NCBI GenBank assembly: GCA_947184155.2
Contig: CAMXCT020002713.1
Span: 336,001-400,000 of the forward strand
Length of the DNA: 64,000 bases
Direction: 5' to 3'
Origin: Cladocopium goreaui
Lineage: Eukaryota > Sar > Dinophyceae > Suessiales > Symbiodiniaceae
Below, one piece after another: positions 28,574 through 54,601 of this stretch. The position numbers and the translations under genes are program-made. Numbering within the stretch: position 1 is the stretch's first letter; the number at the start of each line of letters is the position of its first letter. The notes under the pieces are model-generated. The model did not search any database. It saw nothing but the letters and a program-made list of their open reading frames with translations, and was not told where the DNA came from.

Positions 28574-28632
28574 CCCACCCTAAACACGTGGCGTTTTCCC
28601 AACCCTACTTGGGATAGCCTAACCCTACCGTC

Positions 28633-29440: not shown

Positions 29441-29512
29441 TTAGCCTTGCCAATCCTGTTGATATACTTTTGCACTCGCTGCCCGTATAGCATTCACTAT
29501 CTTGGCTAGTCA

Positions 29513-29553
29513 CTTGGCACCTGACACCCGGGCACCGGCTGTTCAGGGTCAAG
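29513..29553 (+). promoter_or_regulatory. leader hairpin 2 of large gene copy 1
   Basis: This is a second version of the 29402 hairpin. The stem CCTGA/TCAGG encloses an inner stem CCGG/CCGG with loop GCA, and an outer CTTG/CAAG pair is also present. It ends 11 bp before the ATG at 29565. The loop and outer bases differ from hairpin 1 while pairing is kept. Confidence 0.55.
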
Positions 29554-29564
29554 CTGGCGTCAAC

Positions 29565-38011: not shown

Positions 38012-38467
38012 ATGTCACCCAACCATATGAGCTCCGTGCAATCAAGTGAAGTAGTATGCCTGCCTCAAGAACCCCAGACTCACAATGAGGCACAGGATCT
38101 CCTCCTACTGCAGGACTATGTGCACAGACTGACGAATACTCTCAGAACTTTGGAAGACACCCACGCCGTATTGCAGCAAACAGAACTTCTTGCAGGTGTT
38201 ATCAACGAGCAAGACTGCAGAGACATTCGCACAGCCTGCTGTTGCATAAGAAGTCTGCGCATTCGAGTAGAAGCCCGTGCCAATGTTACGGAACGAGAAG
38301 TGATTAGTCGACAGCTACAGCTCATGCATGCGAGCGTACAACACTACCGGACTGAGGACCTTAACACAGCTGACACAAGTTGCCTGTCCAGAACCTCGTT
38401 TGAACATTTTGAGGATAGACCTGGTCCTTGGGCAGAGAAAAACGCTCGTATTCCTACACCAAGGTAA
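38012..38467 (+). CDS. small helical protein, unknown
   Basis: A 151-residue ORF starts at an ATG 15 bp after a hairpin. It is almost all helix (LLLLQDYVHRLTNTLRTLED, then a CCC cluster, then VISRQLQLMHASVQHY). No domain is recognised. The next ORF (38529) has a similar helical layout and may be a diverged relative. Confidence 0.5.
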   Translation: MSPNHMSSVQSSEVVCLPQEPQTHNEAQDLLLLQDYVHRLTNTLRTLEDTHAVLQQTELLAGVINEQDCRDIRTACCCIRSLRIRVEARANVTEREVISRQLQLMHASVQHYRTEDLNTADTSCLSRTSFEHFEDRPGPWAEKNARIPTPR

Positions 38468-38528
38468 CTGAGCTAGCTACCATGATCACCTGACTGCATT
38501 TAATGCCGTTGATTTCAACACTTGCTAA

Positions 38529-38924
38529 GTGACCGCTCGAGCTGCGCAACGCTTGCAAGCCTGCATCCATATTGTCGAGCTCGCCCTTCGCGAACTCGAT
38601 CGCATTGGATTCAGTTTTGAAAGCGGTATACACCGCCAGAGTGCACTGCAACTCCCATATATGGGTACAATTTCCCATATCACGAAACTGCATAGCATGA
38701 GCACTCGCATAGTGAAGCTGCTCACAATACCGGTGCAATATGATGATTGGAAAAGCAGTACTGAGCGGACTCTGAGGGTAGCTGAGTGCTGTTACCGCGC
38801 CGTCTTTTTCACCTTAGATCACGTTTCACCCTTCTGTCTCACGGCGGTAGTTTCTCACCACTTTGTTGTGACCCGGCGTTGTCGGTGTTTGCTTCAAAGT
38901 GTCAGGGTGAATGTCATGCCATGA
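38529..38924 (+). CDS. possible diverged relative of the 38012 ORF
   Basis: This frame is open after a stop with no good ATG at its start. It has helical character (ACIHIVELALRELDRIGF, then RIVKLLTIPVQYDDW). By eye the spacing of helices and of the final Cys/Tyr region follows the 38012 protein, which suggests an old tandem duplication. A minus-strand frame (38454-38738) also looks protein-like, so the coding strand is uncertain. Confidence 0.3.
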   Translation: MTARAAQRLQACIHIVELALRELDRIGFSFESGIHRQSALQLPYMGTISHITKLHSMSTRIVKLLTIPVQYDDWKSSTERTLRVAECCYRAVFFTLDHVSPFCLTAVVSHHFVVTRRCRCLLQSVRVNVMP

Positions 38925-38945
38925 TGGCTGCTCTTTGTGATCTCG

Positions 38946-38968
38946 GGGATCCTGGCTGGGGGGATCCC
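38946..38968 (+). promoter_or_regulatory. hairpin with TGGCTGGGG loop, copy 1
   Basis: GGGATCC pairs with GGATCCC around the nine-base loop TGGCTGGGG. The same loop is closed by an unrelated perfect stem at 54091-54115. It precedes a GT-rich tract and the ORF at 39397. Confidence 0.6.
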
Positions 38969-39174
38969 TGGTTTCCGCATTGAGCTTTTTTGCTTGCACC
39001 CTCGGAGTGGCCCTTTGTGATTTGTTGGCGGTTGATTGTTGTTTGTTTTATTTATGGGCCGGCGAACATGACACATAAGCTGTCATCTGCATGTGCCGAG
39101 ACGATACTAAGCTATCACAACTCGCTTCAACAGAACTGTTTCACCCATAAACTGGAACCCGTCACGTCACTGTG

Positions 39175-39300
39175 GTGCGTTTGTGTGGTTGTTTGTGTTT
39201 TGTGTGGGTTGTTGTTGTGTTTTTTGTTTGGGTTTGTTTTTGGTGTGTTTTTTGTTTTTTGCTTTCTGTTCTTTGTGTTTCGGTTTTTGCTCTCGAAATG
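39175..39300 (+). other. T/G-rich tract in a leader
   Basis: About 120 bases are almost only T and G on this strand (TTGTGTGGTTGTTTGTGTTT type). Similar T/G or pyrimidine tracts lie at 42780-42900 and 54018-54080, each in a leader that also carries a hairpin. Confidence 0.6.
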
Positions 39301-39396
39301 TGACAAGGGATTTGGACTATGTATCGGTCCTCTACCAGTTTACTTTTGCGGCCATTACAGCTTCGGCCCCTGCACGAGTCAATTAATTAATCTCAT

Positions 39397-40158
39397 TTGC
39401 AACATGCTTGGAAACATGTTGAACGACCTGGCGGAAGCCATAAGGCGTTGGACGGAAAAAAAAGAAGATTTGCAGTCATCACGAACCACCAACACAATGA
39501 GAAATTGAATCATTTCTATGTCGACAGGATGCATGAACATAATATCCTGGCAAATCGCACACCGTGCTGGCCCTTCACTGAACTGACCAATAGCTCAGGC
39601 AAGGTGACGGACAAAACTATCGACCTGAACAGAGAATCCCGCTGTAGTTCAGCAGTTCACGAAACTTTCAAGACTGGCTTTGAACACAAGAGTGCCATGA
39701 AGCCTATGCCACGTAGAGAAGAGAACCTACATGGCAAGAGAAAGTACTCGGACCCCTCGGGACAGACGAGTACCCAACAGTTTGACCCGTCCGGGAACTA
39801 CAGTGCCCGTGATCTGCAGAAACTCAATGCGACCTTTGCCGATCAGTCTGAGACTAAATCAGCCGCAACAGTGCCAACCCATACAACCAGCAAAGTCACG
39901 ATGTGGCGACATGGTGAAGTACCGCCACTAGGACCTGCAGCAGAGGGCCGGGCCCGGGCTGCTAAACAGCTGGCGTATGCACGCACTCTATTAAATGCTG
40001 TCATGGAAGCAGCCACCCAAATGGAAGAAGTAGTGAGCAATTTAGTGCAAATCGAGCAAGAACAAGCAACGGCTAAAGAGGAAGATTTGGGGCAAGCTGC
40101 TTCAGCTGCTCCAACCGAATCTTGCACAGAGCCAGCTACAGAGGGAAGTCAGAACTGA
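39397..40158 (+). CDS. unknown protein with helical C-terminus
   Basis: The frame runs to 40158. The most likely starts are ATG 39403 or ATG 39531. The N-terminal part is polar and unrecognised. The C-terminus has a long helix (AAKQLAYARTLLNAVMEAAT, then MEEVVSNLVQIEQEQATAKE) and an acidic tail. This layout (disordered front, coiled coil at the end) resembles the ORF ending at 19861, but no sequence similarity is clear. Confidence 0.45.
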   Translation: MQHAWKHVERPGGSHKALDGKKRRFAVITNHQHNEKLNHFYVDRMHEHNILANRTPCWPFTELTNSSGKVTDKTIDLNRESRCSSAVHETFKTGFEHKSAMKPMPRREENLHGKRKYSDPSGQTSTQQFDPSGNYSARDLQKLNATFADQSETKSAATVPTHTTSKVTMWRHGEVPPLGPAAEGRARAAKQLAYARTLLNAVMEAATQMEEVVSNLVQIEQEQATAKEEDLGQAASAAPTESCTEPATEGSQN

Positions 40159-40776
40159 GTGCACATTAGATTGACATCTGCATGCTGTATAAAGTCCGAG
40201 GGAACCACAGCGAAGACTGTGGCCTTATTCTCACCCTGAGGATGCAGGACGTGAAAAGAAGGTAATTGCACTAGATGGTACGCCTACTGATGGATCAGTA
40301 AAAGTCAAGTAGAATACAATATATAAGAATGCATGATTAAACATTGTCTTGCGATATGTTATCCTTTGCACACATGCAGGATGTGTCTTTGTGAGCATGT
40401 GGCCATTTGTCACGCTGCTCGGTGGAGTGCCTGCAACATTTTTGGCTCAAACAAAAGCACTGTTTTGATTATCACCACCCTTTCCTGGTACAAGCAAGTC
40501 TCTTACTAAATAGATTAGCGTATCTGCTAGACCTGTGCTATCACCGACGGCTGCACCGCACGTGCCTGTGACATCTGACTGCTGTTACGCATAGATTGTG
40601 CTGTCTTGCATGTCAATGAGACCACGTGGCAAGGTTTTCTTGTTTGATCTGCGAAGCAATTCTGGCTCGAGTACGAATGGTCAGATCAGTTGTTGACTTT
40701 TATACTTCCAGGCATACCCCTCGGTATCCTTCCTATCCCCTACCTAGACGAGGTTTGTGGTTGCAGTCATAAGTGC
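40159..40776. other. spacer without a gene
   Basis: No supported ORF. A CATTTTTGGCTCAA string at 40437-40450 slightly resembles the end of the dinoflagellate spliced leader but is judged too imperfect to call. Confidence 0.5.
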
Positions 40777-40812
40777 GAGGCCTCTCTGGCTAAAGACTGT
40801 CAGGGTTGCCTC
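40777..40812 (+). ncRNA. covarying leader hairpin, copy 1 of 6
   Basis: Outer stem GAGGC/GCCTC, 2x2 internal loop, inner stem CT+CTGGC with GTCAG+GG, loop TAAAGACT. It ends 22 bp before the ATG of the ankyrin ORF at 40835. Confidence 0.8.
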
Positions 40813-40834
40813 CGCTTCATCTTACGGGGCAAGC

Positions 40835-41953
40835 ATGCGACTCCGTGTGCGCCATGGAATCCTTGGCGAAACAGCCCTGACGATGGACGTCGTGGAACGG
40901 ACAACTCTCGGATGGGACATTATGAAACAGACGGCGATGGTGCTTAGGTTGGACTCACCCTTCCAAGTGGTCCTCTACGCAGCCAGCTCGTCAGTGATCC
41001 AATCGCCATTGAGGGCTGTCCAATCCGACACTGATACAAATGAGGCAGCATTATGCTATATAGTACAGTCATTGCAAGTCCCGTCAGCGCAGCAATATCA
41101 AGACCTTATAACTGCCATTGATCACAAAGATGTGATTGATGTAAGCTATCTTCTTGGCAAGGGCGTAGGCCTTATGGACGTGACGACTGAGGGAGGGCAT
41201 GTCAGCACATTAGTAGCCTCTGCTATCCTTCGAGACCACTCTGCTGATCCGTATGCTTACCAGCCTACTGCTGGCCACTGCTTCCCTCGACATGGGGCCA
41301 GTTTAACTTATCTACTGCTACAAGCCCAAGCTGACCCCAATATCATCCCGCCCAAAACGCAACCTACCACTATGTTGGAATTAGCAGTTGAGTTGGGCAG
41401 CTCGCAGCTTGTTCAAACTTTGCTTGAGGCTGGTGCCTCGGTGATGCCCGTGAAAGGAGCGCTACCACCCCTCTTCCTTGCTGTCCTCCATCGGCACAGG
41501 ACAAATGTACAGCTGCTCCTAGATGCACAAGCGGACCCGTGGCAGGAGATTGAGATTGCCTCCGTGCTTTGCCATTCACTGCAATGGTACGGTCACCTTG
41601 CCCGTAACGAAGTCTTCAACGCTGTACAAGCTGCTGCTGCGCAGAGTGCTGAAGACACGGTCATTGACCTGCTACAGCAATTCTGTAGCGCAACAGACGT
41701 GATGAGACGTGAGCAATCTTCTTTGGCGCGAGTGAAACCCACAGCGTTGACAGATAGGGCCACCACTATCATGAATCAAACTGTGTGGAAATACCAACAT
41801 ATCGTTGACAAACAGTCTCGACAGATAAACTTCGCTACGGTTCGATGGCGCAGAATACTAGAAGGACTGTATTTACCAGTACGAATACGAAATGAGCTGC
41901 AATCACCCCCGGAGCTCAACCGGGAAGGAACATTCCTGCACCAAGTTGACTAA
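40835..41953 (+). CDS. ankyrin-repeat protein
   Basis: The ATG at 40835 (MRLRVRHGILGE) is chosen because it follows the leader hairpin directly. The first about 65 residues may form a beta-grasp (ubiquitin-like) fold, judged only from the strand pattern. Ankyrin units follow: HGASLTYLLLQAQADPN, TMLELAVELGSSQLVQTLLE with AGASV, and PPLFLAVLHRHRTNVQLLLD with AQADPW. The C-terminal about 150 residues are helical and unrecognised. Ankyrin proteins are protein-binding scaffolds, and the partner is unknown. About 370 residues in all, with no intron visible. Confidence 0.75.
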   Translation: MRLRVRHGILGETALTMDVVERTTLGWDIMKQTAMVLRLDSPFQVVLYAASSSVIQSPLRAVQSDTDTNEAALCYIVQSLQVPSAQQYQDLITAIDHKDVIDVSYLLGKGVGLMDVTTEGGHVSTLVASAILRDHSADPYAYQPTAGHCFPRHGASLTYLLLQAQADPNIIPPKTQPTTMLELAVELGSSQLVQTLLEAGASVMPVKGALPPLFLAVLHRHRTNVQLLLDAQADPWQEIEIASVLCHSLQWYGHLARNEVFNAVQAAAAQSAEDTVIDLLQQFCSATDVMRREQSSLARVKPTALTDRATTIMNQTVWKYQHIVDKQSRQINFATVRWRRILEGLYLPVRIRNELQSPPELNREGTFLHQVD

Positions 41954-42410
41954 TTGTGTGCTCCAGATGAACACTTTCCCAATGAGAGGCTGGCACCAGG
42001 TAAAGGCTGAATTCTGGCCTGCTTGTGACCCTGGAAAAACGAAAGAGCAGTACACATTAGTCACATTCTTCATTCAACCATGATGTCCTTCACTACACAA
42101 GTATAGTGTGCTCTTTTACATGTAGCTGCCGCTCCATGCGATCCTATCGGCTCAAAGTGCGGCAGTAGACAGACCTGCTGCCTCAGCTTATTTCCAGAAA
42201 AGGGCAATATAGAGTGCCTCCTTACCTCGGTGAGGGATCGATATAGCAAACCCTTCCGGTGATTGGGCAAAGGGTATTACTACTGGCTTGTTTTGTCATA
42301 CAACAGATCACACCTTGCTCTTTCGTGCATTGGGACCTTATTCCACGATAGTACCCTTCATTGCGTGATCTCCTTTCACCTTACTCCCTTCTCTCCTTTC
42401 CATTTGGTTT
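41954..42410. other. spacer upstream of the hairpin array
   Basis: No supported ORF. From about 42370 onward the plus strand becomes strongly pyrimidine-rich and stays so to 43010. Confidence 0.5.
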
Positions 42411-42447
42411 CTGGTTTTTCTGGCCAAAGACGTGCCAGGGCTACCAG
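42411..42447 (+). ncRNA. covarying leader hairpin, copy 2 of 6
   Basis: Outer stem CTGGT/ACCAG, 2x2 internal loop TT/CT, inner stem TT+CTGGC with GCCAG+GG, loop CAAAGACGT. Confidence 0.85.
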
Positions 42448-42565
42448 CGCCTCTCTCCACCACCCCTCTCTTTCTTTTGCTCTCTCCTCTCCTCTTTTGT
42501 TCTTTGGCTCGTCCTTGCGGTCTGCTCCCTCCCTTTCCCTCTCTTTCTCCTTTTCATTGTCGTGC

Positions 42566-42601
42566 CTGGATTCTCTGACTAAAGACTGTCAGGGCTTCCA
42601 G
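42566..42601 (+). ncRNA. covarying leader hairpin, copy 3 of 6
   Basis: Outer stem CTGGA/TCCAG, 2x2 internal loop TT/CT, inner stem CT+CTGAC with GTCAG+GG, loop TAAAGACT. Confidence 0.85.
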
Positions 42602-42750
42602 CCTCTCTTGTCCTTTCCTTCCCCCCTGATTTCACTTTTGCTCCCTCACTGCTCCCTCACTGCCTCGTGCGCCGCCTCTGCTGTGTTGTCGTACCTTAAT
42701 TTCTTGAGTGTTGGGTGATTTTCGATCCACTTGTCTCCTGTTAAAGGTGC

Positions 42751-42787
42751 TTGAACTGCCTGGCCAAAGACGTGTCAGGTTTTTCAA
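42751..42787 (+). ncRNA. covarying leader hairpin, copy 4 of 6
   Basis: Outer stem TTGAA/TTCAA, 2x2 internal loop CT/TT, inner stem GC+CTGGC with GTCAG+GT (G-T pairs), loop CAAAGACGT. Confidence 0.85.
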
Positions 42788-42920
42788 CACTCGCCCCCTC
42801 CCCCCTTGTTTCTTTGGTTTGTGTTGCTTTTGGCCTTTTCTGGTTGTTGTTTGTTTTGTCGGTCTTGCGTTGGTTTTCCCTTATTTGGTTGATTTCGACT
42901 TTCGAGACTGACTGGAGTGC

Positions 42921-42957
42921 TTGAGTCTTCTGACCAAAGACGTGTCAGGATTCTCAA
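42921..42957 (+). ncRNA. covarying leader hairpin, copy 5 of 6
   Basis: Outer stem TTGAG/CTCAA, 2x2 internal loop TC/TT, inner stem TT+CTGAC with GTCAG+GA, loop CAAAGACGT. It ends 66 bp before the ATG of large gene copy 2 (43024), with a C-rich stretch between. Confidence 0.85.
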
Positions 42958-43023
42958 CACCCCCCACCCTCCCCCTTAATAACTTTTACACCCAATTCTG
43001 CTACACAGGAACTGCACAGTGTG

Positions 43024-45360
43024 ATGTCTCTGATTTCCAGGGAACAAGTTGTGAAGTCCTGGTACGCGAAGAACCCTAACATCAGCTTCTTTGACTTGCT
43101 CTACGCACTTGAACAGCACAAGAGCATTTCTACTGAGTACGGGCTGAATGTATCAATTGAACAGCACTGGCGATTTGGTGACCCCCATAAGAAGACAGCT
43201 GAACCTGATCGCCATGACTACGAAATTGCAATAGTCAACGGGAGCGAAACCTTACCTGGACCTGACTGGCACAAGTTGTACCGATGGTTGGTTAGTCAAA
43301 GCTCTGCTTTCTTGCCTTACCATACGGTATATTTGGTGACGGACAATCGTGATTTGCAGTCGGACGAGGTCAAGTCTGTGCCTGGACTCAGCCATTGGCC
43401 AATGGTCGCTGCTTGGTGGAAAGAACGGTTACGCTATGTCGGTCCATATGGAGAACTCACCACAGTTGTCTTTGTCCACATTTCAGATGACACTGGTCTG
43501 CATAAAGTTCACCCGACATGGCCAGGGACGTACATTCTTGATGCTTGTGTGTTCCTCTTTCCGACCATCAATTTTGCACTGATTGACAGCGATTGTGTGC
43601 CAGTGACCCTCTTTGAGATACAAGAACTTTGGCTAGCGAGCACTGACCCAACCCGCCCAGCTACATCAAGCAAAGCTGCAAAGAGCAAACTGTCAAGCCC
43701 CATTGCGTCATCGCACAAACGTGCGCGCTCTGTGGACACGGGAAGGGACATGCAGCAGCCTGGTCCACCATCGAAGCTATCCAGATCGCATAGTGCGGAC
43801 CATATTGCTGTCCGAACAGCTGATCCACTACGAGCCCCTCCGTTCACCTACGGTGCCAATTTGGCAGACGAAGTTGACTATGGTGATTCGCCAGACCCGA
43901 GTCCCCGCATGTCTCGTCGGGCGACGTCCAGCAGCGATGACTCCTCCCCGGCGGGGTCAACCAAACCTACCCGGAAGGACAAAGCAGCCGTGGATGAAAC
44001 TGCCACTGCGCGTAGGCCCAAAGGAGTCATCCTTGTGAGTGAGGCATTCACTGAAATCAATGCGGGTCTGTTCATCGTACTAGCTTCGGGTCATGAGAGT
44101 CCTGTACCTGTCACTGCCTTGGAGGACTCGGATACGGATCCTGATGAAATAGCCCAAGTTGTTACCAGTGCTTACCATAGACATGTCGAAGCCTACCTTG
44201 CTACTACATATCCACCTGCAGACGTTGAGCAAGCAGTTGCTAGTGGATTACTTGGCTCTCCTCTGCTTGGCACGTCCACCCGTGTTACTGCAGATTGGTG
44301 CCATGCGTGGAGTTTGTTAGGCCAGTGGTCTGGATTAGTCACCTTTCCGGTTCCAGCCTCTGGAGTCTGGCCGCGCCATGGTCATTTACGGAGGATCCTT
44401 GATGGCTACCAAGGCAGACAGCCGAACTTCCATAAATGGGCTCGGCCTGCCTACGAGCAAGGTGCCCTTCCGACCCTTAGCCTGCTGCCAGGTGAGGTCA
44501 GTGTACGAGTGCTACCAGGAGACAAGATGTACCAAGCCATGGCAATCGAGCCACATTATATGCGGCCTGTTATTCTGCATGGGTTTGGCACCAATGCCAA
44601 GAAAAGAATGCCTAGCAGTCTCGGTGACCTCGCCCAATTCGGCTGGTTGCCGCTGGCTGCGGCTTTATTTGGTACACAAGAATGGAAGCCCCAATGGCTG
44701 CATCACAATTTCCTTCCAGTGGTTGGTCTTCGACTGCATGCCAAAGTGCCTCCTCCTCCTCTCTCCCAAGCTCAACTAATCTTGCTGTGTGGACTGTGGC
44801 AACGGAAGGAACAATCGGAACCCTCCTGTACATCGCTGCAGCAAGCAGCTCCTTTAAAGTTTGGTCTTCCGTTACCTTTCAGAGAGATGGCTAAATGGGA
44901 AGTCACTGCTAATGAGCAGGCCATAGATGTTGGAGAAGTATCCAAACAAAACTACATTGGAAGACAACCTGAAGCTGCGCTGCCCGTAGCGCTCCAAGGC
45001 TCTGCCGAGTGGGCCTCCTGGGTCCTTTCCCTCTCAGAAGTCTGGCAAGATGACGCCCCAATGCAAGACCGACCCCTGGAAGTGCATTGCAGTGGATTAG
45101 GGGGTGGCCTACTTAATGGCGAACACGACTATGATATTTTCCTGCAAAATCTTGCGCAAACAAAGGTGTATGGCCCATCGCTTGCGATGACAGATGATTG
45201 GGAAGCACATGTCACCCAATTGGGCCTCACCAAAACAGTGCATGAATATGCGGTATACCAGCTACTCTCCACTGCAGAAGGATGGGTAGGGGGATGGGGT
45301 CCCCAATACCATGTCCTTAACAGGGGGAGGTGGACCCGAGAGGGTCCGGGGGGACGTTAA
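43024..45360 (+). CDS. large gene copy 2, part 1: GT8-like domain and start of hydrolase region
   Basis: From the ATG at 43024 the GT8-like domain shows VYLVTDNR, the DSD metal motif (NFALIDSDCVP, Asp188), FTEINAGLFIV (Asn346) and ILHGFGTNAKK (His519). The last matches the GT8 H-x-x-G-x-K idea loosely. A Ser/Pro-rich insert of about 100 residues separates DSD from NAG. Further shared blocks with copy 1 are WPRHG, WARP-x2-EQGAL and VHCSGLGGGLL. Homology to copy 1 stops near 45285 (after LLSTAEGW). The remaining about 25 codons to the stop at 45360 belong to inserted sequence. Protein identity to copy 1 is low (roughly a third by eye), so the two genes are old paralogues. Confidence 0.8.
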   Translation: MSLISREQVVKSWYAKNPNISFFDLLYALEQHKSISTEYGLNVSIEQHWRFGDPHKKTAEPDRHDYEIAIVNGSETLPGPDWHKLYRWLVSQSSAFLPYHTVYLVTDNRDLQSDEVKSVPGLSHWPMVAAWWKERLRYVGPYGELTTVVFVHISDDTGLHKVHPTWPGTYILDACVFLFPTINFALIDSDCVPVTLFEIQELWLASTDPTRPATSSKAAKSKLSSPIASSHKRARSVDTGRDMQQPGPPSKLSRSHSADHIAVRTADPLRAPPFTYGANLADEVDYGDSPDPSPRMSRRATSSSDDSSPAGSTKPTRKDKAAVDETATARRPKGVILVSEAFTEINAGLFIVLASGHESPVPVTALEDSDTDPDEIAQVVTSAYHRHVEAYLATTYPPADVEQAVASGLLGSPLLGTSTRVTADWCHAWSLLGQWSGLVTFPVPASGVWPRHGHLRRILDGYQGRQPNFHKWARPAYEQGALPTLSLLPGEVSVRVLPGDKMYQAMAIEPHYMRPVILHGFGTNAKKRMPSSLGDLAQFGWLPLAAALFGTQEWKPQWLHHNFLPVVGLRLHAKVPPPPLSQAQLILLCGLWQRKEQSEPSCTSLQQAAPLKFGLPLPFREMAKWEVTANEQAIDVGEVSKQNYIGRQPEAALPVALQGSAEWASWVLSLSEVWQDDAPMQDRPLEVHCSGLGGGLLNGEHDYDIFLQNLAQTKVYGPSLAMTDDWEAHVTQLGLTKTVHEYAVYQLLSTAEGWVGGWGPQYHVLNRGRWTREGPGGR

Positions 45361-46385
45361 ACTGGTGTATAGCGCTGGGGAGTTGCTGAAGGCCCCCGTC
45401 CCTAACGAACCGTGAATTAACACGGTACCTTGGTACCCCCTAGTCGGCGTGTGTTGACATGTTGGGTTGCTCCTCATGTCACACCCTCGTTTGTGTTTGC
45501 GCACATCCTTGGGTGATCGTGCGGTATCTCGGGGTTCTCCCGGACCGATCGGTACACACGTGGTACGGGACCGACGGGTCTCACCTTACCTTGTGTCTAG
45601 GGTAGCAACACCCAATGATGACACGGGGGAACAGGCAAGGTCGGTGAACCTCTTAGAGACTTGGGGACTTGTCTCGAGGAGGGGTCAACGGGGCAACCCG
45701 TTGGCTAACGGTCAATATTCACCGTTGGGTAGCTAAGCTCGCGGTGGACAAGACCGTCGGTTCCTCCCTAACAGTGTTAGGGGCCTGTCGCAAGACAGGT
45801 GTATCCCCCTGGGATACATGGGATCGCTAACGACTGGGTCACCGACCGGTTCACTCTCATCCTTCGGGGAGAGTGGGCTCAATGTACAGTCTGGCCACAG
45901 TAAGGACCTTGTTTTTGGCTCTAAGGTCCGAGCTGTGCTCCATAGGGACTGGGGTCACTGAAAAGGTGACTAAGACTTTCCACTCCTTTCTTGGATCGTC
46001 TTCTCCGGTAGCAGCTGGAGTCCGGGAACCTATGGGGGCATCATGCGTTGGCTTTACTTGGGTGTGGTGGTGATCATCTTGTGTGGTGACTTTTGGTTTC
46101 TGTGTTCCACGTCCCTTGAGGAGTGATCATCTTGGGTGAAATGAATGGTCTCCGTGTCCGCACGGTTTCCACGTCACTCGGTGAGTGGATCTCCTCGGGA
46201 AATGAATGGTCACAGTCTCCTTGTCACCCGGTGAGTGGATCCACCTGTCCTGGGTTGGCCATCGGCGCATGGTGTGGAAAGGGTACCGCCCCTGGGTGCG
46301 CCTGGTGCTTGCGGGGGGCCATGCTTCTGCGTGGTTTTCGCCTTTTTGGCGTGGCCCTGCACCGGGAGCCCAAAGGTACCAAGCG
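45286..46385 (+). other. insertion with RNA-like structure inside large gene copy 2
   Basis: Copy 1 has no counterpart to this about 1.1-kb stretch. It contains a dense series of stem-loops. Three have GNRA loops: GGACCC-GAGA (45332-45347), CAACGGG-GCAA (45686-45703) and CCTGTC-GCAA (45784-45799). One has a UUCG core (45852-45875). Others are at 45409-45426, 45707-45726, 45801-45817 and 45904-45929. The right part (46100-46250) holds two copies of a GTGAGTGGATC/AAATGAATGGTC repeat. A pyrimidine-rich CTCCCTGAACAG lies at the right edge. It could be an intron, a structured-RNA mobile element, or both. No group I or II core was found by eye. Confidence 0.6.
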
Positions 46386-47188
46386 GGACAGCTTGGCGAG
46401 ATTTCCTCCCTGAACAGTTCTCCGATCAACAACTGCTGCTCACGAGAGCGATTCGCCTCATTGAGGCTGCGAATATCCGGCCAGCCCATGCCAGGCCACC
46501 ACACCCGACATGGTCAACAGCAATTATGCAGATCTTTCGTTGCTACCATCCGCAAGGGAAACATCTATTTCTGAAGTCGTGTTTTCCACACTTAGTCACG
46601 ACAGCGGATACAGGAGGTGTCAGGGACATCAACGTTTATGGATTCTCGGCAGGGTCCTATACGGGCCTTGCAGTCCACGAGATCCTGAGTGAATTCGCTG
46701 CGTTCCCTGGCCTCACCAAAGTTGCTGCGATCGCGACGCCGCCAGAGATGATGCGACTTGCCACGGGCGAACGCAGAGTCACACTGGTGCATTGTCTGGA
46801 AGACCGGCTATGTGTGTGGAAACCTGACCCCCTGACAGAATTCAATTATCAGGTTGTTCTTATAGAAGGGCACCCCACATGGAGTGGGCGTGCCAAACAC
46901 TCCTATGGCCACTTGCTCTTCATTGACCTTGATGAAGGAGTCCATGAAATCCAAAGATTGCAAATCACCACCCCTCAAGTCATTCCACATGGAGTACGGT
47001 GCGAGGGATTGCTGCGTGTACTTTCATGGGTTAGCTTTGACCTTCCTGAACACCTCAAGACGACTCTAAGTGCTCTGTTAGTAGCAGCGGGAGAGGGGAA
47101 CACTGAGCTACAAACAGTACCCATTGTCGGACGGGACATTCGGGATGGTCAGCCTGATACGGAAGCTGAACTACAAGCATTGCGATGA
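46385..47188 (+). CDS. large gene copy 2, part 2: alpha/beta-hydrolase-like domain
   Basis: Homology to copy 1 resumes around WRDFLPEQFSDQQLLL. The frame is open further left (to 46235), but that part is inserted DNA. The nucleophile elbow is YGFSAGSYTG (Ser codon 46646-46648). The acid is in LEDRLCVW and the His in AKHSYGH, the same three positions as copy 1. The stop (TGA, 47186-47188) overlaps the next ATG as ATGA. Copy 1 has no break here, so either a one-base change split the gene or termination-reinitiation is used. Confidence 0.7.
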   Translation, partial: GTAWRDFLPEQFSDQQLLLTRAIRLIEAANIRPAHARPPHPTWSTAIMQIFRCYHPQGKHLFLKSCFPHLVTTADTGGVRDINVYGFSAGSYTGLAVHEILSEFAAFPGLTKVAAIATPPEMMRLATGERRVTLVHCLEDRLCVWKPDPLTEFNYQVVLIEGHPTWSGRAKHSYGHLLFIDLDEGVHEIQRLQITTPQVIPHGVRCEGLLRVLSWVSFDLPEHLKTTLSALLVAAGEGNTELQTVPIVGRDIRDGQPDTEAELQALR

Positions 47189-50166
47189 TTCCTACACCGG
47201 GAGGATCCCATGATGAGGGAGGGTTGCTGGTTCGCAACTTACTGGCGGAATTCCTGCGTGGTTTTTCATTACGTACCCTCATCTTCCTACTGGACATGGT
47301 GCTTCCGCAACTAGACGCTTATCATGCGGGACGGCAGCTCCAACATCTCCAGCCCTGGGTTAGTGTAGAACTAGCTCAGCAGAAGAAGCGAGGACAAACG
47401 GGAACACGGTTACAGGTTACCTACCAATATGAGGCGTATGCTGGCTTTCATGTCATTCACCTACATACTGACGGTGCCCCGCTCCTGCTCTTTAGTGCAC
47501 CTTCGGAAGTTCCAACGACCTCGCCGCGTGCTCTCTGTGAAGCTGGGAATCTAGGCAACTTGGAAGCCAACGTGATGGCGGGCAGAGCACTACTGGGAGT
47601 ACTCCAGTTGCCAGACACTCAGCAGCGGTGTGTCATATTACTGGTACATGAAAAGGTGATGCCTAGCGGAACCAGCAAGAACCCTGCTCAGCGAGCGCTC
47701 AAGCGCATTGCCCCGAAGTTGCTGGAGCTTGTTATCGTCTCGCTACCCATTGCTCGGACCTTTTGTGGGCGACTTTTGGACCAGTATCTCAAAACAATGA
47801 GTTACTTTGATCCTGCACAGGACTGGCCGAAACCCATCGAAGACCACGTGTCCATGGCCGTAGTGTGGGAGGAGCTAGCCTTTCTGGGAGACACACGCAG
47901 CCGCCATGAACTCTTAGTGTTTGCACAAGCTAACCAGTCGCGCCTACCATTGGCAATGGGCATCGTGCAGCCGCATATACCTGTTCGCCGTATGGCCAGC
48001 GAGCGCAAAACGCAGCTGACTGATGCATTAGTCAGAATCTTGAGCCGGTTTTTGACACCAGCCACGATCTCGATGGATGGGGCCCATGACAGTTATTACC
48101 GTGAGCATCTACTTCCTCTAGCAGCCCACGGTGATGGACATATCTTGACTGTCTCAATTGCACTGTTGCTGGCCATTTTGACAGGAAGATCTGACTTATG
48201 TATTGCAGGGGTCTTTGGTGCTGGCAAAACGCGGTCCCTTGCGGTCTTGCTCATTGCCCTGAGCTGCGAACTCAAGGACTTTATTGCGATCATCTATACG
48301 AAAGAAAATGTAGCTGCCAAAGCACTTGCGGATCAGTTAAGTGACCTCGCGCCCCCCACAATCCGGAACTTTGGTAGGCTAATTGGTCGCATGGAGGAAG
48401 GCAAAGGAGACGCATATGCCTCCAAAATTGATGTCCGATGCAGTGACCGCAATAGAATCATCGCTCACAAGAATGTACTCATTGCAACAGGTGGCTCAGC
48501 CACGGCGGAAATGGCGATGCGCTATTCCACTTTTGGCCATTGGATCTCTCGCACCTGGCTTGCTTTCATGGACGAAAGTCAACAGTATGGCAATTACCAT
48601 GAAATTGCAGCTCTCGCTGCCATTCAACAACCAACCCTTACAGTCTTCATTGGAGATCACAGGCAAACACCAGGAGGGCTGTCCAAAGGCCGAGCAGCGG
48701 CTGTCAATCGACGCAAACTGTTGCAACGGCCGTTAGGGCTCCGAGCGCTTGAGAAGCCAGGAGACTATCTTCCGCCGGCACGAATGGCAGCCCTTGTAGC
48801 TCAACTTTGGCCTGATGCGAGCCAAGATCCGGAGTCAGATCTCTTTAAACTGCTGAGACTTGCAAATAAGCCGCATAGTGGCCCATGGACATCCACTCCG
48901 CAAGACTATGAGCTGCCTGTCGCCCTAAGGCGGGTGCTCCACTGCCGAATCTCGTGTCAGTTGGATGCACATAGCAGCCTCATTGCAGCAGCTCTAGCAG
49001 TCCTGCTGATTGCCACAGCACCAGAGGAGTTTGGAGTACCTGAGTGTACCACAACCCTTGAAGCAGCCGGGCTATGTGGTCCTCATCGATGGGGTATCAT
49101 TCTCCCTAACAGCTCACGGGTCTCAATGCTGACGTACCAAGCGATCGTTGCAGTTCGTTATCCTGAATTAGTCCTTCACGAGCCCAATCACATCTACATT
49201 GGACACTTCGTGCCACATGAGGCCACTGTGGCACAAGGAGGTTTCCGTACAGTACTGTGGAATGCACCCAAAGATCTAAGAGCAGCTGTTGAAGATGTGG
49301 TTGCCTTCTGCACCTACCTGAAGAATTATTATCGCAACTTGCAACAGGGAGCAACCTCGCAGCTGCTTGTCTTATGCAACCGTACAGCGGTGCACAACTT
49401 GCTGCTCCAGCATGGCTTTCAGTCCGCGTGGTATGGCGGGCTGAGAGTTTCCACCACTTCCTCTGCTGCAGGGGCGACAGCACGCATTGCGGTCATTGTT
49501 CAAACAGGTGTCGGGTTTCTAAGTGGAGGACGTAGGGATGCAACAGCAGACGAGCGTGAGGACTGCTATGGAAGAGCAACTGTAGCGCTGACAAGAGGCA
49601 TTGAACATACCTATATTGTCTCGCCTCTCGATATGGCAGGCATGATTGGCATGGCTCAGACAATAGGAGTGTACCATTATGGATACTTCACGCTGAAAGG
49701 CCGAGACATTCAGTACCATGGCCCTACAACCTACCCCAGCGACAAAAGTGCCATACTGGACTGGGGATTAAAGGCACCTTTCATTCCCCAAGATAAACCC
49801 CCCCTTGCTATTGCCATGATAGTGACCACTAATGGAACACGAGCGTGGCGGCGATATCGGTTGGTTGTGGCATGCAGAGACAAACTACGTCTTCCCCCTG
49901 ATGTCCTCGCAGCGCTAGAGTCCCGCACACGTGACCATGTGCTGACGGCCAGCGGGTTTTTCCCCTGCTCGATTGATCGTGAATACTTGTATGGTTACGC
50001 TGCTGATGGTTACAGATCTCCCCTCTGGCTATGTGCAGCCTATAATGGGTCCCCAGCACTTGTTCATCGACATAGAGGCCACAAAGTCTTCTTTCACGTG
50101 GGTATACAGGATCGACAACTTGTCGTAATCCCGGGTATCCATTACTTCGATGCCCATCGGTTGTAG
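47185..50166 (+). CDS. large gene copy 2, part 3: UPF1-like SF1 helicase
   Basis: About 990 residues. A helical linker leads to Walker A VFGAGKTRS (48214-48240). Then come LIATGGSAT, Walker B FMDESQQYG (about 48568), motif III IGDHRQTPGG (about 48652), a SRVSMLTYQAIVAVRYP segment (motif IV/V region) and motif VI DCYGRATVALTRG (about 49561). Motif III and VI are close to the UPF1/NAM7 group (GDHRQLPP and NVALTRA). Conserved tail blocks YAADG and VIPGIHYFDAHRL match copy 1. The frame ends at a TAG (50164-50166), but homology and the same frame continue beyond it. Confidence 0.8.
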   Translation: MIPTPGGSHDEGGLLVRNLLAEFLRGFSLRTLIFLLDMVLPQLDAYHAGRQLQHLQPWVSVELAQQKKRGQTGTRLQVTYQYEAYAGFHVIHLHTDGAPLLLFSAPSEVPTTSPRALCEAGNLGNLEANVMAGRALLGVLQLPDTQQRCVILLVHEKVMPSGTSKNPAQRALKRIAPKLLELVIVSLPIARTFCGRLLDQYLKTMSYFDPAQDWPKPIEDHVSMAVVWEELAFLGDTRSRHELLVFAQANQSRLPLAMGIVQPHIPVRRMASERKTQLTDALVRILSRFLTPATISMDGAHDSYYREHLLPLAAHGDGHILTVSIALLLAILTGRSDLCIAGVFGAGKTRSLAVLLIALSCELKDFIAIIYTKENVAAKALADQLSDLAPPTIRNFGRLIGRMEEGKGDAYASKIDVRCSDRNRIIAHKNVLIATGGSATAEMAMRYSTFGHWISRTWLAFMDESQQYGNYHEIAALAAIQQPTLTVFIGDHRQTPGGLSKGRAAAVNRRKLLQRPLGLRALEKPGDYLPPARMAALVAQLWPDASQDPESDLFKLLRLANKPHSGPWTSTPQDYELPVALRRVLHCRISCQLDAHSSLIAAALAVLLIATAPEEFGVPECTTTLEAAGLCGPHRWGIILPNSSRVSMLTYQAIVAVRYPELVLHEPNHIYIGHFVPHEATVAQGGFRTVLWNAPKDLRAAVEDVVAFCTYLKNYYRNLQQGATSQLLVLCNRTAVHNLLLQHGFQSAWYGGLRVSTTSSAAGATARIAVIVQTGVGFLSGGRRDATADEREDCYGRATVALTRGIEHTYIVSPLDMAGMIGMAQTIGVYHYGYFTLKGRDIQYHGPTTYPSDKSAILDWGLKAPFIPQDKPPLAIAMIVTTNGTRAWRRYRLVVACRDKLRLPPDVLAALESRTRDHVLTASGFFPCSIDREYLYGYAADGYRSPLWLCAAYNGSPALVHRHRGHKVFFHVGIQDRQLVVIPGIHYFDAHRL

Positions 50167-51693
50167 CCGGACCTTTTGGCCACATTGGATCGCCAATTTG
50201 ATCCAGGGTCTATGAAACTCGCAAGCCCTGAGGGTGCAGGAGACACAGTGAATGACCCCTCCTCGGATGAGGAAGCAGCCTCTACCGATGACGAAAGTGA
50301 TCCAGAAGACCCTACAGTTGCGTGGTGCCCACCCATACCTGATGCAGCTGAAGATCCCTCTGAAGACGAGATCGCGAGTGCAGCTGACCAGCTAGCAATT
50401 CTGATTACTAATGTCCAACCTAACGGAAACCCTTTTTGCATACCCGAAAACCTTGGAATTCTCCCGCCGCTGTGGCTACAGGCGAGATTGACGTTGTCTT
50501 TGACTGCCATCCAAGAAAAGTTTGCGCGCATCTTGCTGAGTGTGGCCTGTGAACTGTGGTTGCGCGGGCAAATTGCCAGTGTGGAGGATGTCCTCCAGCA
50601 GACGGCAAGAGCTCTCACAATTCGACTGGCAGAGAAGCTCGCCCAGGCGATGAGCTCGCTGATGAGATTGGCTGAATCCATGGTGACTCCAGAAACTGAA
50701 TGCCTGTTGTATGCCACTTACTGGTTTCGGCCCATCCTGTCTGAACTCATTGGCTCGGCCCGAGAGAGCTCTGAGGTGAATCGAAGTCGAGCGCCGAGTG
50801 GCCCAGTTAAAGTCTTGGTCACAGATCGGCCGCATCGACGCACTACTGGGTTAGTGGACCTTACGAGTGGTGCCTCTGCCCTACTGGCATGGTTCCCGGC
50901 TAGCTGGGCCAGCAAAATTGCTCCCAAACTTCTCGAGAATGCTCCTGAGAATGCGCAGAAACCACAAGAAATCAACATCACGTGCCCGAAACGTTCCTGT
51001 GACGAGACTCCAGTGGAGGGAACAAAGCAGCTACTCCAGGCAGTTAAATTTGCTGCCAAAAACATGCCTGGTTTTCGCCTTGGATTGGATGAAGACTTTC
51101 AAATGGCTGGATGTTTCCAGGAGCTCATCCATGGATATACCACAGGGCTCGTTGAACCATACATGATGCGAGGTCTCCAACCGTTGGGACCGAATCGCAC
51201 TACTCTGGAAGTGATCATACCCTCTCAAGTAGGGCTTACACCTGAAAAGTGGAAAGAAACAGCCACACTGTGCCCACTTGATTGGCCTTCCAACTACAGT
51301 CTGTTGCGATTGTGGCATACCAATGGAAGCCTTCATCAAACGGAAGCGCGACTCAGGAATCAACTGTCACACAGCCATATGTTTGCTGAGTGGACAGTGC
51401 ATCTCCACAGATTTGCAGAGCGAGTTTTATTCCAGCAACCTGCAGTTTATGTAGCGGGACATGCCTTGCAAACCAACCTGCGGGAACGAAACTTCCCGGA
51501 CAGGAAAGTCCGCAAGAGAGTCTCTCCTGAAGATCTGGACGAACATCAAAGGGCGATCCGAGCGCTTCACCAGCGTGCTATTGCTCAGCAAGGAGTGAAC
51601 CCAGTTTCGTTTGGACTCACCAACGAATGGAACGACACTATCACATCGGATAAAAAGCATTATTTGGAACACTTCACGAGAGGTATGACATGA
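50167..51693 (+). CDS. large gene copy 2, part 4: C-terminal region after an in-frame TAG
   Basis: The codons directly after the TAG at 50164 stay open to 51693 in the same frame. They align with the C-terminal third of copy 1 (for instance CPLDWPSNYSLLRLW with MPVGWPLHIDGAVRQ, and the following SLHQTEARL with SLQELDDML). The region is acidic at first, then helical, and unrecognised. No ATG lies close to the TAG (first one at 50212). The product is therefore either a readthrough extension, a separate protein, or the dead 3' part of a decayed gene. Confidence 0.65.
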   Translation, partial: PDLLATLDRQFDPGSMKLASPEGAGDTVNDPSSDEEAASTDDESDPEDPTVAWCPPIPDAAEDPSEDEIASAADQLAILITNVQPNGNPFCIPENLGILPPLWLQARLTLSLTAIQEKFARILLSVACELWLRGQIASVEDVLQQTARALTIRLAEKLAQAMSSLMRLAESMVTPETECLLYATYWFRPILSELIGSARESSEVNRSRAPSGPVKVLVTDRPHRRTTGLVDLTSGASALLAWFPASWASKIAPKLLENAPENAQKPQEINITCPKRSCDETPVEGTKQLLQAVKFAAKNMPGFRLGLDEDFQMAGCFQELIHGYTTGLVEPYMMRGLQPLGPNRTTLEVIIPSQVGLTPEKWKETATLCPLDWPSNYSLLRLWHTNGSLHQTEARLRNQLSHSHMFAEWTVHLHRFAERVLFQQPAVYVAGHALQTNLRERNFPDRKVRKRVSPEDLDEHQRAIRALHQRAIAQQGVNPVSFGLTNEWNDTITSDKKHYLEHFTRGMT

Positions 51694-51897
51694 TCCCCAG
51701 CTCACCCCTGCTCGCACCACTTATACCCTTTCTGTGTCCACCCCTTCCCCCCCTTCCTCTTTTGTCTCATTTCGGTTTCACTCCCCATTGCTCCCTCACA
51801 CAGTATTCGGCCTTTGTTTCATCAACAATGGTGGTGGGAGTTGACCTAAATCTCTATTTGGTCCCGTCGTCATGTCTACTTAAGGTTACTGTCCATA

Positions 51898-51934
51898 CCG
51901 GTGTGTCTGTCCAAAGACGTGACAGGTGCACTGG
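51898..51934 (+). ncRNA. covarying hairpin, copy 6 of 6, after the large gene
   Basis: Outer stem CCGGT/ACTGG, 2x2 internal loop, inner stem GT+CTGTC with GACAG+GT, loop CAAAGACGT. It has the only CTGTC/GACAG version, a two-sided change relative to CTGAC/GTCAG. It lies 205 bp after the last stop of the large gene. Confidence 0.85.
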
Positions 51935-53544
51935 TATGCAGTAGGGGACACAGCTCTTCCTCATTTATAATTGTTAGGTTCATGATGCTGTACATGCCTG
52001 GCCCCTACCTACTCAGATCTCTCAACAGTTGGTAGCCGCATTTGTAGTTGTGTGTGAGTGCCAACTTAGGCATAACAGATCGGGCAGCATGATTTCTCTT
52101 TGCACTAGTTTTCAGAATGTGTTGTCCAGTCGAGAGCTTAGACTATACTAAGGTCGCCTCCACCATGAAGCCTATTGCACGAGCGCACGCTCTCGCAGCC
52201 TTTGCCTGACAATCATCGATGGGTAATGAAACTATTGTTATTCTCCCCAGACTTAGTCTTGACGAGACACCCACTTTCCCACCCTTCCCACTAGTTAAGG
52301 TATCTGAATTCGTTGACTAATCCCTAGGTTTTGCCCTTAGCAGAGCTACATTAGGTGTTGGTGCCTTGTTATCTAGTTCTGGTTTTTGTTGCCTGTTCCC
52401 TGCCTGACGTGGCCCTCCCTCCCCCTCGGATGGTCCTCTTCGGCGCCTTGGCCCAGGTTTTACTGGTCCCTCCCTCTGGGTATCGTTGCTTCCGGCGACG
52501 GCCTGGTTGCCTTGCCTCTGTGCGTGGAGTGTTTGTTGCGCATTGTCTCCCCTCCTCATCATGTCTCATGGCAACAAAGGCCTTTGGCCCTGTGTGGGGA
52601 TCTTTCCCTCTACACCATGCTTCATGTGTTGTTGGGGGCTGTGTGCTCCCTCACTGAGGTATTCATCATAGTATGATCTTTGGCCCCTTTTTGAACTCCG
52701 CTAAGGCACGTTTGTACCCCTTCTGGTGCGGGTGTGTCCTTTCTCACTCTGTCCTCTGCTGCCTCCTGGCTCCTCTCCTCGCTTTCTCTGTGTGGCTTGT
52801 GGCGTTGTGTGTGTTGTGCTTTGGCCGCTCCCCCCTTTGTGCTTCCCCCCATGATGGCAGTTTTCTTTTGGCTGGCTCTTTGTCGTTTTGCTTCACCTGT
52901 TGCCTGGATACCGAGGTTACCGCTCTACATCATAACTTTTCGTTTCACCTTTGCTACATGAGACTCATCTGGTAGTGACTAAGGATTTGTCCGAGGTGGG
53001 GCGTTTTTGTCACCGTCCCCCCCTCTCCTTGTTTCCCCTTTGAATTCGTTTGTTGTTTGGTTTGGTTGAGTCTTGTGGCTCTTTCTTTGGCTGTATTGGG
53101 AAGGGCCCTTCTCGCTCTGTTTTGTTTCTGCGTTTTTTCCGAGAGGGGCGGTAGATTCCCGGTAGAGCCATGGAGTAGGCTGCACTGCAGTGAGCTCTAC
53201 TGGCGCTGTCCAGTTGTGCTTCCTGCTGTTCAGTCTGGAGCGCCCGAGTGCAGCAAAGCCTGCCCACATGGTTCGTTGTGCGGATATTCTGTACTGCCCT
53301 GGCAATGGCCCACTCGGTGGGAGAGAGTGGCCTCGTCTGGAAAACACAGCTAACATACGGTGCATCTGGTCCTCTCCGCAGGACTTGCTGGGACGATGAC
53401 GCCTAGTGACTCCTGTGTGAGACCTAGTGCTGACGCAGTGAACCACTTCAACCTTCATAGTTTAGGGGAACGAGTTTGACAGCAATGCGAATGCGACTTT
53501 TGCATACATAGCGGCAGTATCATACTGGAAGTGCTCACGAGCCC
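51935..53544. other. pyrimidine-rich spacer without a supported gene
   Basis: The plus strand is C/T-rich between about 52370 and 53060, similar to the leader at 42370-43010. A perfect palindrome CAAAGGCCTTTG lies near 52575. The open frames give Cys/Leu-rich strings expected from C/T-rich DNA, and I do not call them. Confidence 0.5.
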
Positions 53545-53907
53545 ATGCTATGGTCGGAAGCTTCATCTGTCTGTCATGGCCGTATTGTGCCGGTTAGGCC
53601 TATAGCCACCTTTTTACCCACGGTCTTAGGGTCTTGGGCCTATTGCGCTCTGACGGTTCCTGCGAGTGCTCACACCATTTTGCAGGCTGTCAAGTGCTCT
53701 CCTCCCCACTTAGGGGGGGAAATAGATTACAATCCCTTGCGGTGGTGCATATTGACAGGAACAGACTGCCGTGCATACGCTGAACGATACAGAGTGAACA
53801 GCAGCGATGCGAAGTTGCTATTGACAAGACGTCCATACAGGCGGCCTTTGTCGTGTTACACATCAGTCTGCCTGCAATGTTGGATTCGCTTCTCTCTTCT
53901 CAGGTAA
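53545..53907 (+). CDS. hypothetical small ORF
   Basis: A 120-residue frame with an ATG start. It has a hydrophobic segment (LPTVLGSWAYCALTVPASAH) and a basic middle (RRPYRRPL). No domain and no leader hairpin are seen, so it may be chance. Confidence 0.2.
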   Translation: MLWSEASSVCHGRIVPVRPIATFLPTVLGSWAYCALTVPASAHTILQAVKCSPPHLGGEIDYNPLRWCILTGTDCRAYAERYRVNSSDAKLLLTRRPYRRPLSCYTSVCLQCWIRFSLLR

Positions 53908-54090
53908 GACAGTCTGGACGATCGTGTACTATACTCTATGCACTGCCGCAATTAATTAGTTTGCATGTTTTTGAGGATGATACAGTGGCTTAGGTCACTG
54001 TATCCAAGGCAAATCTCATGTTTTGGTTTTGGTTTTTTGTTGGGCCCTGCCCCGTTCTTTGTTGCTTCGCTGTTTTGCTTTGTGGCGAAA

Positions 54091-54115
54091 CGCAAATCTG
54101 GCTGGGGGATTTGCG
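54091..54115 (+). promoter_or_regulatory. hairpin with TGGCTGGGG loop, copy 2
   Basis: A perfect 8-bp stem (CGCAAATC with GATTTGCG) closes the nine-base loop TGGCTGGGG. A 2x2 internal loop and a weaker outer stem (GGCGA with TCGTT) continue it. The stem shares nothing with the 38946 copy but the loop is identical. Confidence 0.65.
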
Positions 54116-54601
54116 GGTCGTTTTTGGTTGCGTGATGATTTGCCAGAGTTTTTGGACCACACGTGTCCTATACTTTACTGCTTTTCACCGCTTACGCAAT
54201 TGTAAGGACCGTGCCTAGTGCGATCGGCCAAATCGGAGAAAAAAAAGGAAAGAAGGCACAGGAGACAAAATGGCAAAGCGACAACAAAACCGAGGGAAGA
54301 GAAGAAGGAAGGGGAGGGTCGGCCGAATGGACAACACAGAAACCGAGTCTTTGAGGCTGAAGTGCTGCCATACTGTCTGGCTTTGACTTCCTGGGCACGT
54401 CTTGAAGACCGCCACCTGGTAATCTTCATCAGCAAGGATGGAGGAAGACACAGTTGGACTCAAAGCATGCACGTTGGATGAGAGTGTCCCCACTTCAGGA
54501 GAGTGCCCACAGCCAGCAATTCGGCCGATGGGCCTTCTCGCCTCGACTTTGACCTGTGCATCCGACTGGGTGCAGGCACTGTGCTTTGATGGGACGGCGA
54601 G

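Follow-up and report, generated by a model that had tools for sequence, protein, structure and literature searches.

Six hairpins in a retrotransposon copy

The window analyzed here, 64,000 nucleotides (nt) of contig CAMXCT020002713.1 of the dinoflagellate Cladocopium goreaui, holds the visible part of a copy of what, judged by its genes and ends, is a giant retrotransposon of the long interspersed nuclear element (LINE) type, i.e., without long terminal repeats (non-LTR), together with six copies of one RNA hairpin, the subject of this study. Positions are those of the window unless another contig (C34, C113, etc.) is named, hairpin places are called slots and lettered, and dN/dS denotes the ratio of nonsynonymous to synonymous substitution. 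The features of the element in the window are as follows.

39463..54250, plus strand: what is visible of the retrotransposon copy; C34, C35, C113, and C26 have collinear copies; the 3' end lies in an A-run near 54250
39463..40158, plus strand: 3' part of gene D; 231 amino acids (aa) aligned, 99% identical to C34; left side cut by an insertion
40777..40812, plus strand: hairpin slot E, in the leader that precedes ankyrin; the ATG follows at 40835 (offset +22)
40835..41953, plus strand: ankyrin gene, 372 aa from the ATG; dN/dS of 0.22 between copies
42411..42447, plus strand: hairpin slot F, which opens the row of four in the leader of the helicase-like gene
42566..42601, plus strand: hairpin slot G, second of the four
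42751..42787, plus strand: hairpin slot H, third of the four
42921..42957, plus strand: hairpin slot I, fourth of the four (ATG at 43024, offset +66)
43024..51693, plus strand: helicase-like gene; AAA_19 match below the curated cutoff; 1.1-kb insertion and broken frames
45286..46385, no strand assigned: 1.1-kb insertion that interrupts the helicase-like gene; not present in C34, C26, or C113
51898..51934, plus strand: hairpin slot J, within the element's 3' region; paired along its whole length, without a visible conserved gene behind it
51935..54250, plus strand: 3' region, taken as untranslated

All six hairpins were found, on the plus strand, where an earlier sequence-only reading of this DNA had placed them, with slot E before the ankyrin gene, slots F to I before the helicase-like gene (large gene copy 2 of that reading), and slot J after it. 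When a covariance model built from the six copies was run over the whole window with filters off, the same six were recovered at 50.1 to 58.7 bits, and the next match scored 12.9 bits. The claim that the outer stems differ in sequence yet pair was borne out (72 of 72 pair cells in the six copies were standard pairs, counting one outer G-U in the copy at 51898), as was that of two-sided change in the stems, which was seen in 6 of 12 pairs, a count reached by 13 of 500 shuffles. The covariation score of the six copies was 0.750 (shuffles, 0.240; slid partners, ≤0.189), and folding of each copy relative to its own shuffles gave z values of −2.11 to −4.44 (0 to 5 of 200 shuffles equally good). The architecture said to be common to the copies held overall; its 2x2 internal loop was present in five of the six, the copy at 51898 being paired throughout with several U-G pairs. 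Likewise, the inner stem CTGNC/GNCAG described the window copies, but slots B and C elsewhere carried CCGAC/GTCGG. That the hairpin resembles no named motif held for the Rfam library, in which no family at E values up to 1 overlapped any of the six hairpins.

Pairing of the hairpin across the genome

In the genome (1.166 Gb, 6,202 contigs), the core pattern CTGNCNAAAGACN{0,1}TGNCAG had 1,613 + 1,610 = 3,223 strict matches, compared with 0 + 2 for the reversed control. Among the matches listed, hairpin series in the order of the window and with similar spacing occurred, e.g., on C34, C35, C107, and C113, and others were parts of the series or other groupings. Core-pattern matches in viral and prokaryote collections carried the outer-stem pattern in 0 of 41 rows (some rows being the same DNA twice), compared with six of six window copies; 14 further core-matching rows from two related viral scans were also without it, and by a rough estimate the number of core matches in these collections is what chance gives. 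A chance origin of the hairpins was rejected on this absence of the outer stem and on the reversed control in the genome.

Matches to the covariance model numbered 85, of which 53 were distinct, and an alignment of these 53 hairpins was fitted to the model. In it, 96.8% of cells paired, and the covariation score was 0.616, compared with 0.172 for shuffled and 0.051 to 0.130 for slid alignments. The loop YAAAGAC(G)U and the 7-bp upper stem were almost constant (loop positions were near-fixed, with A23 and C24 in all 53 of the distinct set), and the lower stem drifted with compensation. A compensatory pair was seen even inside slot C (GTTGT/GCAAC versus GGTGT/GCACC), and in a comparison of the window with the copy at 615 kb of C113, the four clustered hairpins were identical at 159 of 167 positions (95%), compared with 661 of 907 (73%) in the remaining spacer. 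In slots A, D, and J and in the arrays described below, outer pairing was achieved in other ways. Selection on the fold, which the sequence-only reading had proposed, was supported by the ten slots (A to J) and by the leader arrays, with their different but pairing stems. That reading could not have shown that all copies are parts of one mobile element.

A set independent of the model was obtained by taking every closing C-G with the loop YAAAGAC(G)Y in 270 kb, which gave 72 places. All four of the next inner pairs were present at 70 of the 72, and one such pair was present at the other two. Cores lacking the stem were thus not as common as cores with it; for the inner stem the balance lay the other way, and the outer stem was looser than had been claimed. 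In the loop-found set, G-U outnumbered A-C pairs by 63 to 0 in inner stems (near-fixed U-G pair included) and by 20 to 7 in outer stems; in the model set, with the near-fixed U-G pair left out, the ratio was 59 to 2. Since G-U pairs were far above A-C pairs, it is RNA of the coding strand that folds, which points to the first option of a reading that had left the choice between RNA and single-stranded DNA.

Hairpin slots and gene leaders

Across the copies, 58 hairpins were assigned to ten slots, A to J. Those upstream of the part of the element seen in the window, with a conserved open reading frame (ORF) that stands among them, are as follows.

Slot A: before a 127-aa ORF
Slot B: before a 269-aa ORF
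Slot C: before a 248-aa ORF
131-aa ORF: after gene C and before slot D (C35:311720-312115, C113:595162-595557), without a hairpin of its own
Slot D: before a 388-aa ORF

Seven of the nine recognized genes were preceded by a hairpin or by a row of four to eight, the reverse transcriptase (RT) gene and the 131-aa ORF being without one. Arrays of eight (C80), seven (C113), and five (C35) hairpins stood before ORF1. No hairpin was found before the RT gene, the ATG of which lies 15 nt after the ORF1 stop; the stretch from the RT gene to slot A is probably not a gene, because its gaps do not keep frame. Hairpins and genes had the same orientation in mapped copies, and three minus-strand hairpins on C26 lay outside the slot assignment. 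The distance to the ATG was steady within a slot, with offsets of +25 in four of four copies for slot B, +20 to +22 in six of six for slot E, and +65 to +68 in six of seven for slot I (the seventh, on C34, ended with the sequence read). Slot J was occupied by two hairpins in tandem in C113. Compared across copies, the hairpin shows itself to be an RNA element under selection that is tied to the gene leaders of a multigene retrotransposon.

Extent and ends of the retrotransposon

Twenty stretches of the genome (19 no longer than 10 kb each, and a further one of 4 kb) were compared with the window. The element of the window was mostly 83 to 98% identical to the copies on C34, C35, C113, and C26 and 72 to 79% identical to a truncated minus-strand copy in C35. 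The same 3' end was found in the window and in five other copies looked at, with short impure A-runs followed by unrelated DNA. Indels in the 3' region were multiples of three in 12 to 16 of 76 to 91 cases per pairwise comparison.

For the 5' end, we used the dinoflagellate spliced leader, a 21-mer. It had 81 + 91 = 172 exact matches in the genome, compared with 0 for the reversed control, and the same leader relic is printed in PMC12014239. The leaders at C113:531026 and C80:951617 had the spliced leader at their start, followed by a second, worn leader; across the window and the loci of its own genome, there was one exact leader fragment, at the C80 5' end. The spliced leader at both complete leaders argues for an RNA intermediate with one capped 5' end. 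In C113, the leader (531026) and the A-run (641850) were both flanked by GACTGCCCATGGAGGTTT (18 bp, exact), and the longest match to 2,000 random 75-mers was 12. We take these to be opposite ends of a single insertion with further insertions nested inside it (535 to 565 kb and 575 to 581 kb lay outside the stretches compared). Upstream of both complete leaders, in the opposite direction, lay mutually related minus-strand ORFs (C113:525001-529575 and C80:946003-951153), gag-like in C113 (zinc knuckle), which perhaps mark a preferred insertion neighborhood. Window positions 36324-36342 were the empty site of the 5'-truncated minus-strand copy at C35:262232-266653, and in the flanks of that copy an imperfect target duplication of about 19 bp was read by eye.

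The order of the element was spliced leader, ORF1 (2,272 aa, similar to DNA methyltransferases [DNMT]), RT gene, six small genes, the 2,524-aa helicase-like gene, and the A-rich end. Its full length would be ~34 kb, an arithmetic sum over pieces of different copies, with no single uninterrupted copy read (leader, 1.14 kb; ORF1, 6.8 kb; RT gene, 6.1 kb; onward to just short of the ankyrin gene, 7.2 kb; onward to slot J, 10.3 kb; and 3' region, 2.3 kb).

Genes of the element

The RT gene and ORF1 lie upstream, outside the window, and ORF1 ends 15 nt before the RT ATG. The RT ORF matched RVT_1 (E = 3.6e-9), with R2 proteins the nearest among solved structures in the PDB (E = 1.6e-4), and had a weak RNase H-like match. 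Pfam scans that covered two pieces of ORF1 and, beyond its first 195 aa, pieces of the RT ORF showed no endonuclease domain (APE or RLE). The C-terminal piece of ORF1 (41 of 754 candidate places scored) and the ORF behind the hairpin arrays (42 of 2,356) were halves of one 2,272-aa frame, e.g., on C3335. The DNMT motifs FDGVG, SPCQ, and CGN were recognized in the C-terminal half of ORF1 by eye, and no DNMT was found in the ORF1 pieces by Pfam at E values up to 0.1.

The helicase-like gene formed a single 2,524-aa frame in copy C113. Public data contain a large family of related proteins (52 were found, with clusters of up to 1,018 members), and no relative was encoded on any viral contig searched. 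At the junction of the insertion at 45286-46385, the overlap between the alignments was just ~2 bp. Genes B, C, and D had no Pfam domain above the cutoff, alignments of the helicase-like protein and gene B had no match in the PDB, and genes B and D were related to each other (25 to 29% identity).

By the Nei-Gojobori method, with stop codons left out, dN/dS in ten comparisons of eight genes (the RT gene was outside the set) ranged from 0.05 to 0.23: 0.22 and 0.22 for the ankyrin gene, 0.07 and 0.05 for gene B, 0.10 for ORF1 (660 codons), 0.09 for the helicase-like gene (991 codons), 0.10 for gene A, 0.17 for gene C, 0.23 for the 131-aa ORF, and 0.10 for gene D. These low ratios indicate that the genes of the element were kept working by selection.

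Possible functions of the hairpin

The best explanation, to which we give a rough probability of 0.36, is that the hairpin is a putative cis-acting RNA element, the loop of which would be read by one factor that licenses expression of the cistron behind it, likely by internal initiation. The reader could be a protein of the element or a host factor. By the most likely route, the factor at the loop would let ribosomes start internally on the multigene RNA of the element; the RT would be reached by termination-reinitiation, coupled to ORF1 15 nt away, and the 131-aa ORF would be served in some other way. In favor of this account, hairpins stood between genes and before ATGs, singly at small genes, in a row of four at the helicase-like gene, and in arrays of five to eight at ORF1, as though a single copy served small genes and the signal were multiplied before the largest proteins. 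The wider version, in which about nine genes would share one ~34-kb RNA of a nuclear element, most of them expressed via one reusable hairpin code that starts translation internally, we consider unlikely. As a bolder proposal, the DNMT-like ORF1 protein may itself be the reader and may modify the loop cytosine (C in 53 of 53 distinct hairpins). By its sequence, the loop CCAAAGAC could pair with GUCUUUGG, a stretch of eukaryotic 18S rRNA; a given 8-mer would be met by chance in 1.8 kb about 3 times in 100, and we treat the match as a lead, not as evidence.

A number of observations weigh against translational licensing or against the picture of hairpin and element on which it is built. In the 53 distinct hairpins, one of five covariation measures was no better than shuffles, namely, the number of pairs with two-sided change, which was 8, compared with 7.2 after shuffling, a count reached by 145 of 500 shuffles. 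All five outer pairs were present in fixed register in 20 of 41 distinct hairpins, four in 8, and fewer in 13. The distance from hairpin to ATG depended on the gene; in intact frames it was ~20 to 25 nt (B and E), 65 to 68 (I), 80 to 87 (ORF1), 107 to 109 (C), 127 to 128 (A), and 218 to 225 (D). Slots can be lost, as in the C113 copy at 565 to 575 kb, in which slot A was decayed and slot F was absent, and gene A was in broken frames in C35. No conserved gene was seen behind slot J, and the 131-aa ORF is conserved (dN/dS as given above) without its own hairpin, so that the rule is not one hairpin per cistron. The arrays before ORF1, where the 5' end already has a spliced leader, and the geneless slot J fit binding or packaging as well or better. 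As for the element, a third leader seen (C35) had no spliced leader, and for the truncated C35 copy a script found no exact target duplication. As for possible readers, the DNMT match of the C-terminal half of ORF1 was weak (NCBIfam dcm, E = 0.0017, below its cutoff), and gene B as a candidate RNA binder had an unusable predicted structure (predicted local distance difference test score of 41.5) and no PDB relative.

In the main alternative, hairpins would instead be sites of ribonucleoprotein assembly or packaging, i.e., a cis-preference signal by which the ORF1 or RT protein coats or selects its own long RNA, an account that we regard as doubtful although quite conceivable. The sites are spread along the RNA (5' arrays, four in a row midway, and a single hairpin in the 3' region), the invariant loop with a drifting lower stem is the expected look of a protein site, and placement between genes would follow from the lack of room in coding sequence. 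Packaging explains the arrays, slot J, and the conserved 131-aa gene that does without a hairpin better than licensing does; it explains worse the regular placement in gene leaders, near the ATG in slots B, E, and I. A role in trans-splicing or processing, in which each cistron would be freed as its own spliced-leader mRNA and the hairpin would mark or expose an acceptor nearby, seems improbable to us. Dinoflagellate mRNAs carry a spliced leader, as does the 5' end of the element, the spacers of the four-hairpin row were 66 to 88% C+T, and in the copies printed an AG was seen by eye close 5' of the hairpin in slots A, B, D, E, H, and I (six of ten), but none was seen there in slots C, F, G, and J. 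A 21-mer at 40651-40671, 106 nt before slot E, had 5 of 21 mismatches to the spliced leader, as did its near-identical copies in C34 and C35, with 6 mismatches at 615 kb of C113 and 7 in C4. However, chance allows such a match (0.1 matches with ≤5 mismatches were expected per 64 kb and strand, and the window plus eight loci were scanned), the other C113 copy had none better than 8 mismatches, and the exact leader fragment at the C80 5' end stood alone in the window and these loci; the 21-mer could be a chance match or a very worn relic, e.g., of gene capture.

Selection of the hairpin as DNA, in promoter or cruciform repeats, is very improbable. Some LINE leaders contain tandem monomers, to which the tandem arrays in the ORF1 leader may be compared, but duplex DNA would lack the polarity by which G-U is tolerated and A-C hardly, in inner and outer stems alike, and on this polarity a cruciform or promoter was rejected as the main role. 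Still less credible is a self-propagating small hairpin repeat, like an introner or a miniature inverted-repeat transposable element, whose presence in spacers would be mere accumulation. The parasitic dinoflagellate Amoebophrya has introners that form hairpins (PMC7789003), and the tandem slot J pair in C113 would suit such a repeat; against it, the same slots recurred in the same order across mapped copies, mapped hairpins lay between ORFs and never inside a conserved one, and the spacers of neighboring hairpins were dissimilar (in 10 comparisons, 12 to 185 of 200 shuffles were as high). An introner was judged unlikely on the fixed slots and on the position of the hairpins in spacers between conserved ORFs, and an origin of the four-hairpin row by duplication of some larger unit in tandem was rejected because the spacers were unlike. 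A self-cleaving ribozyme was rejected for want of an Rfam match.

Other features of the window

Large gene copy 1 (29463-37682) was a distant relative of the helicase-like gene (29 to 31% identity) and may belong to another or a truncated element family; no model hairpin was found near it in the window. A 1.33-kb unit was inserted at 38136-39464 and at C113:636920-638253, with a 19-bp target duplication at C113. ORFs at 20239-27848 were mostly about 34 to 45% identical to elements in C113 (about 598 to 614 kb) and C35 (about 295 to 302 kb) and represent another large repeat family, in which the hairpin model found nothing in the window. Direct repeats of ~345 bp (99% identity) at 27841-28976 flanked a stretch 99% identical to 19916-20301, indicating a recent duplication or an LTR-like insertion. 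A tandem array with a 146-bp unit (8.3 copies, 95% matches) lay at 62147-63361 and an ATGA microsatellite of 257 copies at 8959-10022.

Relation to known elements and significance

The closest known element, likened by gene order, features, and published description, was SymbioLINE-Dnmt, a dinoflagellate LINE that is reported to have two ORFs, conserved 5' and 3' untranslated regions (UTRs), no poly(A), and transcription biased to ORF2 and the 3' UTR (de Mendoza et al. 2018, PMC5890265). It shares with the present element a DNMT-like ORF upstream of an RT, an RNase H-like region, target duplications, and purifying selection (PMC5890265). In contrast, the RT gene of the present element is followed by six small genes, the helicase-like gene of 2,524 aa, and hairpins, and the copies examined end in A-runs on the 3' side. 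The main text of PMC5890265 nowhere uses the word "hairpin." Terminons, giant Penelope-like elements of rotifers, also have many extra ORFs and structured RNA motifs, namely, hammerhead ribozyme motifs (PMC6431247); their RT is of the Penelope class, whereas the present RT is nearest R2, and no ribozyme family in Rfam matched the window. Amoebophrya introners, too, are repeated and hairpin forming in a dinoflagellate, but are introns (PMC7789003), unlike the present hairpins, which lie in retrotransposon spacers and have a common fixed loop. In the open-license papers covered, no title or abstract start described the hairpin, the element, or the extra genes, which is weak evidence of novelty.

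In its form, the hairpin recalls the iron-responsive element and similar motifs, with a fixed loop and upper stem, an internal loop, a drifting lower stem, and copies in UTRs; it differs in loop sequence and in its location in a transposon, and its reader protein is putative. LINEs are usually thought to be compact, with one or two ORFs, and gene control in dinoflagellates is thought to be mostly posttranscriptional; to our knowledge, few RNA signals for it have been defined. The present hairpin offers such a defined motif for testing, being abundant, short, and easy to use in a reporter or as bait. The element itself appears as a LINE of ~34 kb with nine recognizable genes, of which the eight tested were all under purifying selection and seven are introduced by the same covarying hairpin, which suggests that the "3' UTR" of SymbioLINE-Dnmt may hold genes as well. 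Such an element would be a rare example, in a eukaryotic nucleus, of a single RNA that carries many cistrons.

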